From Thermococcus sp. 4557 (GTDB taxonomy: Archaea; Methanobacteriota_B; Thermococci; Thermococcales; Thermococcaceae), in contig NC_015865.1 of the NCBI RefSeq assembly GCF_000221185.1, forward strand, positions 496,001 through 560,000: a stretch of DNA of 64,000 nt, given 5' to 3'. Positions 22,326 through 26,394 of this stretch are shown piece by piece (within the stretch, counting starts at the first letter, position 1; each line of letters starts with the position of its first letter). The position numbers and the translations under genes were made by a program. A model generated the notes under the pieces. That model worked only from the letters and a program-made list of their open reading frames with translations. It made no database searches and was not told where the DNA came from.

Positions 22326-23207
22326 TCAGCCCAGCACCTCGGCGAGCAGCTTTCTTATATTCTCCCTCACCTCATCCCCGTCCATCATGTACGGGGGCCT
22401 GAGGATGGGTTTTATTGAGAAGCCGCGGAGCGACATGGCGAGCTTTATTGCCGAGCCAAAGGATGAGGCAACGTCGTAGACCCTGGACAGCTTTGCCAGC
22501 CTTCTGGCGTGCTCAAAAGCATCCTCGAACCTCTTTTCCTGGAACGTCTTCCAGAGGGCCAGGTGAACCTCTGGGGCGAAGTTGGCGCAGGCCATTATTC
22601 CCCCGTCCCCACCCAGGACGAGCGTGTTCAGGAAGTGCTGGTCGAGGCCTGTGAAGACCATGAAATCCTTTCTCTCGCCCTTTACCTCGAGGATTACGTC
22701 GCGGACATGGTTGACGCTGTCAATCGTCTCCTTCACGCCGGAGATGTTCGAATACTCGAGGGCGAGGCGCTTGATGAGGGAAACGCTGAGCGGGTTGGCG
22801 CAGGAGGGGATGTTGTAGAGGATGATCGGTATGTCAGTGCTCTCGGCCACGGTCGAGTAGTGGGCGAACAGGGCGTCGTCGTTCAGGGGGCAGTAGTAGG
22901 GGGGCGCTATCACGACGTAGTCGGCCCCTATGTCCTGGGCGTGCTTCGTAAGCTCAACGACCTCGAAGGTGTTTGAGGAGGCCGTACCGACCAGGTAGAA
23001 CGCCGACTTGACCAGCTCCCTGCCCCTCTCGGCGAGGAGCTTCCGCTCGTTCAGGCTCAGGCTCGTGAACTCGCCGGTCGTCGCGTTGATGAATATCCCG
23101 TGGACGCCGACCTTCTGGAGAAACTCGATGTGCTCCTCGAGGGCGGGGAAGTCAATTGAGTAGTCCTCGTTGAAGGGCGTTACAAGGGGCACCACAACAC
23201 CGCGCAT
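22326..23207 (-). CDS. DHDPS/N-acetylneuraminate lyase family aldolase
   Basis: Schiff-base class I aldolase of 293 residues with a TIM-barrel pattern. The catalytic tyrosine (Tyr131 in IILYNIPSC) and Schiff-base lysine (Lys159 in ISGVKET) are present, as is the FINATTGEFTSLSLNERKLL segment that corresponds to the GTTGE active-site loop. Substrate is open: dihydrodipicolinate synthesis, 2-keto-3-deoxy-sugar-acid cleavage or another pyruvate aldol reaction. No lysine-pathway genes are adjacent, which argues for a sugar-acid or other lyase role. ATG 23207 follows GGTGA. It is divergent from the ATPase gene. Confidence 0.85.
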   Translation of the reverse strand: MRGVVVPLVTPFNEDYSIDFPALEEHIEFLQKVGVHGIFINATTGEFTSLSLNERKLLAERGRELVKSAFYLVGTASSNTFEVVELTKHAQDIGADYVVIAPPYYCPLNDDALFAHYSTVAESTDIPIILYNIPSCANPLSVSLIKRLALEYSNISGVKETIDSVNHVRDVILEVKGERKDFMVFTGLDQHFLNTLVLGGDGGIMACANFAPEVHLALWKTFQEKRFEDAFEHARRLAKLSRVYDVASSFGSAIKLAMSLRGFSIKPILRPPYMMDGDEVRENIRKLLAEVLG

Positions 23208-23264
23208 GGGATCACCGAAGATTTTGGGGGAAGGGGGTATTTTAGGGTTCCGGGAAGTTTTTAA

Positions 23265-23299
23265 GTATCGGTACCGATACCAAGTATCGGGGGCGATAC
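23265..23299 (+). promoter_or_regulatory. Paired 16-bp palindromes in the ATPase promoter
   Basis: A perfect 16-bp palindrome GTATCGGTACCGATAC (23265-23280) is followed after 3 bp by a second element, GTATCGGGGGCGATAC (23284-23299), with the same 6-bp arms GTATCG/CGATAC. They lie directly after a TATA-like tract (tttttaag, 23257-23264) and end 2 bp before the ATG. Their centres are 19 bp apart, almost two helical turns. This placement suits a repressor site, or a site for the ATPase itself through its C-terminal winged helix. Confidence 0.7.
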
Positions 23300-23301
23300 C
23301 T

Positions 23302-24375
23302 ATGCTCTTTGACCCGAGACCAAAAGAGAGGAGGGAGGAGATGTTTGACAGAGAGGCTGAGCTTGATGCCATTCTCATGGGTATGGAGGAGTATCCGATA
23401 ACCCTTATCATAGGAATCCGCCGTGTGGGCAAGAGCTCCCTTCTAAAGGCGGCCCTCAACGAATATCGGGGAATCGGGCTCTACCTCGATGCCCGCAGGC
23501 TCTACGCGGCAGGGGGCGGAAACATAAGCGCCTCGGTGATGACTGACGAGCTTGGTAGAATACTCCTGGGAAGGGGTCGTTTTGGGTTCCTCAGGGGCAT
23601 AAGCGTTGAGAGGGTGAATCTCGGGGGGATTCAGATCAAACCCCGTGACATGGGGTTCATGGACGTCCTTGAGATTATCAACGGAATCGGGGAAAGAACA
23701 GGCCAAAAAGTCATCCTGGCCTTTGATGAGGCCCAGTATCTAAGATTCTACGGTTCCCGGGGCGGAAAGGACCTGCTGGCCGGCATAGCCCACGCCTATG
23801 ACTCAATGCCGAATCTGGGTTTCATATTCACCGGCTCGGAGGTTGGACTCCTCCACGACTTTCTGGGACTGGATGATTACTCAAGCCCCCTCTACGGAAG
23901 AATCTACGAGGAGGTTGAGGTCAGGCCGTTCCCGAGGGAGCTTTCCGAGGAGTTCCTCAGGGCGGGCTTCTCGGAGGTTGGGTTGGACGTACCGCAGGAT
24001 GACATCAAAAGAGCTGTTGATGAGCTGGATGGAATCCCCGGATGGCTAGTTGAGTTTGGATTCAATTACTGGAAAAAGGGAGACCCCAAAAAGGCCCTGG
24101 AAGCCACGATAGCAAAGGCGAGGAACATGATACGGGAGGAACTGCTAGAACTTGAAAAGCGCTCCCCGAGGTACACCCTCATCCTGCGTGGGGTCTCCAT
24201 CGGACTGTCAAGGTGGTCCGAGATACGGGACTATGTGGAGGCAAAGAGTGGCCCCATAACGAACGCCAGGCTGGGCAGCCTTATCAGGAACCTGGAAAAG
24301 ATGGGATGGATAAAGAAGGAGAACGGGGGGTACCGGATAATAGACCCCGTGGTGGAAAAAGTGTTGAGGGAGTGA
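23302..24375 (+). CDS. Archaeal STAND-type ATPase with C-terminal winged helix
   Basis: P-loop ATPase of the archaeal ATPase group (Pfam ATPase_2/AAA_14 type), 357 residues. Walker A is GIRRVGKSS (38-46), Walker B LAFDEAQYLRF near residue 178, sensor-like FIFTGSEVGLL near 215; residues 285-355 form a winged helix (RWSEIRDYVE...LIRNLEKMGWIKK). The N-terminus LFDPRPKERREEMFDREAE matches the conserved family start, so ATG 23302 is preferred over ATG 23341, though the latter has a strong GGAGG. Such genes are multicopy in Thermococcales and often linked to mobile or defence loci; function unknown. Confidence 0.86.
   Translation: MLFDPRPKERREEMFDREAELDAILMGMEEYPITLIIGIRRVGKSSLLKAALNEYRGIGLYLDARRLYAAGGGNISASVMTDELGRILLGRGRFGFLRGISVERVNLGGIQIKPRDMGFMDVLEIINGIGERTGQKVILAFDEAQYLRFYGSRGGKDLLAGIAHAYDSMPNLGFIFTGSEVGLLHDFLGLDDYSSPLYGRIYEEVEVRPFPRELSEEFLRAGFSEVGLDVPQDDIKRAVDELDGIPGWLVEFGFNYWKKGDPKKALEATIAKARNMIREELLELEKRSPRYTLILRGVSIGLSRWSEIRDYVEAKSGPITNARLGSLIRNLEKMGWIKKENGGYRIIDPVVEKVLRE

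Positions 24376-26394
<2,019 letters not shown>

Follow-up and report, generated by a model that had tools for sequence, protein, structure and literature searches.

A phased palindrome pair as the probable private operator of an AAA+/winged-helix ATPase gene in Thermococcus

The promoter of an ATPase gene in the 64-kb window (the whole stretch of DNA that was analysed) contains two palindromes, P1 and P2, which repeat the pattern GTATCG-N4-CGATAC between the TATA box and the ATG. It is probable that this pair constitutes a private operator, where the ATPase would bind its own two palindromes by means of its winged helix and shut its own promoter. Relatives of the gene carry the same arrangement with site sequences of their own, and this points to proteins that each recognise and control no gene but their own. 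The ATPase family is widespread in archaea and includes two solved structures, and no described function was found for it in the literature searched. The conserved site before these genes is a direct handle on them, since the sequence by itself is enough to predict which DNA each member targets. Besides, the many diverged protein-operator pairs make up a natural data set on DNA reading by winged helices and on insulation among paralogues.

The elements of the promoter region, read from the sequence, are as follows.

23258..23265, + strand: TATA-like element TTTTTAAG of the ATPase gene, with a putative promoter function
23265..23280, no strand: palindrome P1, GTATCGGTACCGATAC, half-sites 1 and 2
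23284..23299, no strand: palindrome P2, GTATCGGGGGCGATAC, half-sites 3 and 4

The TATA-like element and P1 overlap by one base, the last of the former being the first of the latter, and P2 ends 2 bp short of the ATG (23302), so that the 35 bp of the pair span the region from the TATA box to the start codon. The distance between P1 and P2 is 19 bp from start to start and likewise from centre to centre, and these positions agree with the preliminary description, which had placed the two centres 19 bp apart between the TATA tract and the ATG. It had also described one perfect 16-bp palindrome and a near-copy. The first part holds, as P1 is palindromic over its full 16 bp, but the term near-copy does not do justice to P2, where 12/12 arm bases match and the asymmetry is confined to the 4-bp centre GGGG. 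Over both palindromes, the arm bases are perfect (24/24). The half-sites follow one another at intervals of 10, 9 and 10 bp with alternating direction, which places all four on roughly one face of the DNA helix. The exact pattern occurs in the 2.01-Mb genome, a single contig, at P1 and P2 only. When the 64-kb window was scanned for two palindromes at 19-bp spacing, 12/12 arm pairs were reached at P1/P2 only and no other position attained 10.

The gene, the relevant parts of its product and the neighbouring genes are located as follows.

23302..24375, + strand: ATPase gene encoding P0001 (357 aa), with Pfam ATPase_2 and a C-terminal winged helix (profile matches, homology, structure model)
24154..24339, + strand: winged-helix domain, residues 285-346, the proposed reader of P1/P2 (Pfam MCM_C match, AlphaFold2 model)
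24262..24300, + strand: recognition helix, residues 321-333 (AlphaFold2 model, comparison between operator types)
22326..23207, - strand: dihydrodipicolinate-synthase-like gene, divergent neighbour (name predicted from sequence)
24376..26301, - strand: argS, arginyl-tRNA synthetase, convergent neighbour (name predicted from sequence)

P0001 is an intact member of the SSO1545/PAB2292 family of AAA+/winged-helix ATPases. Its match to Pfam ATPase_2 (PF01637) scored 73 bits, exceeding the curated cut-off of 33.2, and residues 285-346 matched the winged helix of MCM_C with 48 bits. The Walker A (GIRRVGKSS) and Walker B (FDEAQ) motifs are intact, and they are invariant or nearly so across the alignments. 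The closest solved structure is 2QEN, which we take to be PAB2292 (the PDB record says paby2304), with full-length homology at E 3e-107, 51% identity and a TM-score of about 0.9; it is followed by 2FNA (SSO1545), also full length, at E 1.5e-49. The AlphaFold2 model, built from 28 sequences, has a pLDDT of 91.5 and places the wing at residues 337-346. A Foldseek search with this model returned 2QEN, 2FNA and then archaeal Orc1/Cdc6 and CED-4/Apaf-1, in this order. Homology begins at MLFD, which supports the translation start at the ATG. The dN/dS values against relatives are 0.08-0.14, indicating that the gene is under purifying selection. As for the neighbours, argS is a constant landmark of the ATPase locus in Thermococcus, and the divergent dihydrodipicolinate-synthase-like gene is the left neighbour in many, not all, relatives. 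The stop codons of the ATPase gene and of the convergent argS adjoin without a spacer (24373-24376 of the window), an arrangement kept in many Thermococcus genomes.

The preliminary description had proposed to look for the motif upstream of other genes of this kind, and in 94 Thermococcaceae genomes it was found to precede the orthologous ATPase genes instead of being scattered at random. The survey compared the exact forward palindrome pattern with a reversed control pattern; the former gave 75 exact matches in 46 of the 94 genomes, and the latter 0-2 per genome. Most of these matches (59) are located just upstream of the orthologous ATPase gene or its remnant, 15 at the argS-side locus without an ATPase gene, and a single one inside an unrelated coding region. 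The A-type pair, as the window's version is designated below, precedes orthologues at argS and, in Pyrococcus and more genera besides, at different loci. The 19-bp phase and a gap of 1-3 bp to the start codon are kept even where protein identity is 51-55% and the locus is different. In most Thermococcus orthologues, TTTAAG or TTAAG directly precedes P1. The control of a regulon in trans was rejected, as exact sites are found nowhere else in the genome and only one match lies outside the ATPase/argS loci in the 94 genomes; the control of neighbouring genes was rejected because the neighbours vary from locus to locus. One genome (G063:C68:14963-15035, L093) has four tandem GTATCGGGGGCGATAC palindromes before the ATPase gene in a perfect 19-bp series, as would be expected if the array scaffolds repeated binding.

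The arrangement extends far beyond this family of genomes. A scan of one-per-species archaeal genomes, made with an alignment headed by SSO1545, gave 80 loci, which come from Vulcanisaeta, Caldivirga, Desulfurococcales, Metallosphaera, other Sulfolobales, Thermoplasmata, Bathyarchaeota, Thaumarchaeota, Thorarchaeota, Hadesarchaea and others. Most of these loci have two phased inverted repeats just 5′ of the start, often with a GGGG centre; an example is the pair AGTTACAGGGGTGTAACTAAGTTACAGGGGTGTAACT, shared by Metallosphaera javensis and another genome of the Sulfolobales. The 77 genes that were scored received a value combining both palindromes and their mutual repeat, and a score of >=20 was regarded as a strong pair. 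This level was reached by 50/77 genes and by 0/385 shuffled sequences, the shuffling having preserved base composition and not dinucleotides. Outside the Thermococci, 34/60 relatives from many archaeal phyla scored >=20. About a third of the genes in this broad set score low, with degenerate repeats or a different shape, which counts against the private operator; 50/77 is a lower bound, since the pattern score misses repeats of other shapes in distant relatives. The start-to-start spacing is 19 bp in 41/59 genes scoring >=18 and 17-22 bp in the remainder.

The paralogues demonstrate that the layout is kept and the sequence of the site is not. For 59 paralogues (40-56% identity with P0001), the sequence 5′ of the gene was read, and almost every one has inverted repeats between TATA box and start codon. 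Most of these form a palindrome pair in 19-bp phase, with a half-site that differs from one protein clade to another. The following operator types are distinguished.

Type A: half-site GTATCG
Type B: half-site ACTTAYG
Type C: half-site GTAAYG
Type D: half-site ACTTGCA
Type E: half-site ACTTACC, with TTG as gene start
Type F: longer dyad around ACCAGTAACTGGT, outside the 19-bp scheme
Type G (the gene of genome G093): half-site ACTTCTG

Seven changes are enough to account for the eight operator types on the maximum-likelihood tree, which comprises 89 proteins. There is good support for each of the clades B (with H as a variant), C, D, E and F; type A is spread over at least two groups whose mutual relations are weakly supported, and may be the older state. 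The motif around the start of the recognition helix changes with the operator type, type A having TNAR, B PEPR, C PNSR, D NDSN and E NDAK. In partial Mantel tests, operator distance correlated with recognition-helix distance given the ATPase domain (r 0.25, permutation p 0.0005); the corresponding r for the other parts of the winged helix was 0.12. As judged from sequence distances, the operator is thus tied more closely to the recognition helix than to the remainder of this domain. A correlation with the operator is also seen for the ATPase domain (partial r 0.37), so that the covariation of operator and helix is partly shared descent, which weakens the case for the private operator.

The diversity within a single genome can be considerable. 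One Pyrococcus genome (G011, L409-L428) counts about 15 members of the family, pseudogenes included, and many of these are broken; most have an upstream inverted repeat, and no two operators are alike. The assignment of a genus to such coded genomes is an inference from kinship groups. The genome of the window also contains ATPase_2 genes of about 465 aa, which, judged by length, are probably of the nuclease-fused type. Four of them (L194, L196, L199 and L205) have an inverted repeat near the start with a shuffle p of 0.003-0.01, and for two other ATPase_2 genes of the same genome (L195 and L200) the inverted repeat near the start was below significance.

The position of the pair in the gene's own promoter, and its conservation together with the gene, argue for the operator. 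The preliminary description had suggested a dimer-of-dimers site, perhaps bound by the ATPase's own winged helix, and this reading is strongly favoured by the clade-specific half-sites, by the closer tie of the operator to the recognition helix and by a genome in which the site has no further target. The fold, which outside the protein's own family comes nearest to that of the DNA-binding Orc1/Cdc6, is a further point in favour. According to the proposed mechanism, the ATPase would bind, probably in the form of two cooperating dimers, to the four half-sites, which face nearly the same side of the DNA. The bound protein would cover the region from the TATA box to the start codon, where TBP/TFB or the polymerase would be excluded, and transcription of its own gene would be shut off. 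Release would be brought about by the nucleotide state or by a ligand. Each paralogue clade would have evolved its own half-site together with its own recognition helix, with the result that no cross-regulation would take place within a genome. The role of the ATPase itself as the binder, repression rather than activation, the oligomer and the releasing signal are what we infer from these comparisons.

Two further groups of observations speak against the simplest form of the private operator. First, several gene-less Thermococcus loci keep a perfect pair, which a pure operator would be expected to lose in time. In several Thermococcus genomes, the pair is present at argS without any ATPase sequence. 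In five ATPase-less genomes (L077, L085, L086, L087 and L116), the argS pair is inverted in place; these pairs look like the product of a flip of the segment that the outer arms enclose. In pair-only genomes, a separate argS 3′ sequence is retained at the ATPase/argS junction. Two further gene-less A-type loci have lost one palindrome. Arm changes in A-type pairs number 17/288 at gene-less loci versus 8/528 at loci with the gene (Fisher p 0.001, to be regarded as indicative only, the genomes being related), and this excess, which speaks for the operator, would fit sites that decay once the gene is gone. A C-type pair without an ATPase gene was also noticed at about 8589-8623 of L121 (G008), followed by a putative IS605-type TnpB gene, assigned by eye.

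Second, the E-, D-, F- and some B-type genes of Thermococcaceae have a same-type pair also after the stop codon, for which simple promoter repression does not account. The window gene, of A type, has no 3′ pair. Outside the Thermococcales, no convincing second pair was seen at the 3′ end of the genes, and 3′ pairs were rejected as a general feature of the family. A second family member in the genome of the window (L214), of E type, has pairs of CTTAC-N6-GTAAG palindromes on both sides (G000:1716341-1716375 and 1717468-1717502). At the E locus, close relatives have either P1-P2-gene-P3-P4 or a gene-less P1-P4. The simplest reading of such empty loci would be deletion by recombination between the direct-repeated palindromes, to which integration at a pre-existing pair is formally equivalent.

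According to an extended reading, these would be pan-archaeal self-targeting ATPases, each gene having its own phased operator and a recognition helix to match, present as an orthogonal set in each genome and acting at their own locus only, which in Thermococcaceae would bind both gene ends and drive their own gain and loss. This is considered rather unlikely. It also seems unlikely, on balance, that the gene is primarily a cassette whose ATPase recognises the pairs at both gene ends, with gain and loss by recombination there and a secondary role in the promoter. The same-type pairs behind the stop codons, the filled and gene-less versions of one locus in close relatives, the pair-only argS loci without a coding remnant, the pairs inverted in place and the location of A-type genes at different loci in different genera would all suit a cassette. 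However, the unit is a single ATPase gene between unrelated neighbours with no transposase, recombinase or nuclease, the window gene has no 3′ pair, the 5′ pair stands alone outside the Thermococcales, and the empty sites can be explained by passive deletion between short direct repeats. Phage and plasmid records carry no copies either: a tblastn search of them revealed no relative, and PHROGs gave no match, so that a mobile element derived from a phage or a plasmid was rejected. A defence system was rejected as well, since the matches to PADLOC were weak (the best at 1.6e-05) and confined to the P-loop region. The suggestion in the preliminary description of a mobile or defence-linked gene family is thus not supported in that form; what bears on mobility is the repeat-flanked genes and the gene-less loci keeping the pair in Thermococcaceae.

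Another reading, with little probability, is that the protein is an Orc1/Cdc6-like initiator, for which the pair it binds would be a small site of replication or DNA remodelling. Archaeal Orc1 genes adjoin their cognate origin boxes, and the layout resembles iterons next to an initiator, with private specificities. Beyond its own family, the protein is structurally closest to archaeal Orc1/Cdc6 proteins, one of them solved on origin DNA, but the TM-score is only about 0.5-0.6. Plasmid or phage carriers are absent, and in the archaea examined the position of the site is tied to the TATA box and the start codon, which fits a promoter better than an origin. It is similarly improbable that the pair serves another transcription factor of the host, for instance in the control of the ATPase gene or its neighbours. 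The sequence alone is compatible with a different DNA-binding protein, but a half-site for each paralogue clade would demand a matching factor for each, the A-type operator has no other target in the genome, and the neighbours vary between loci. A signal at the RNA level, with the inverted repeats forming hairpins in the mRNA leader, is very improbable: the dyads could give G+C-rich stems, but archaeal promoter geometry predicts a transcription start within P2, which would leave P1 untranscribed, and yet P1 is as symmetric as P2.

Among known proteins, the SSO1545/PAB2292-type ATPases (2FNA and 2QEN) belong to the same family as P0001 over the full length, and neither a function nor a DNA target was found for them in the literature searched. 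No description of the palindrome pattern was found in open-access full texts, an earlier mention in the SSO1545 structure paper being possible. The private operator proposed here resembles that of TrmB-family and other autorepressing archaeal winged-helix regulators, which have a palindromic operator over the region from TATA to the start. The mode proposed for the ATPase is alike, but its ATPase part is unrelated to these regulators, and it would act strictly on its own gene, each paralogue having an operator of its own. Archaeal Orc1/Cdc6 proteins resemble P0001 to some degree in their AAA+ and winged-helix fold and bind sequence-specifically to repeated sites, often near their own gene; the similarity (a TM-score in the range given above and about 14% identity) is far below that within the protein's own family. 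For a plant NLR, too, DNA binding in the manner of Cdc6/Orc1 has been argued (PMC4599002). IniR, a mycobacterial signal-transduction ATPase whose ATPase domain its authors compare with SSO1545, regulates transcription at a promoter and has a C-terminal DNA-binding domain; it is a trehalose-responsive activator of another operon and has a MalT-like domain (PMC5760070). P0001 differs in having no MalT-like domain and in having its only predicted site in its own promoter. In function, IniR is the nearest characterised relative.
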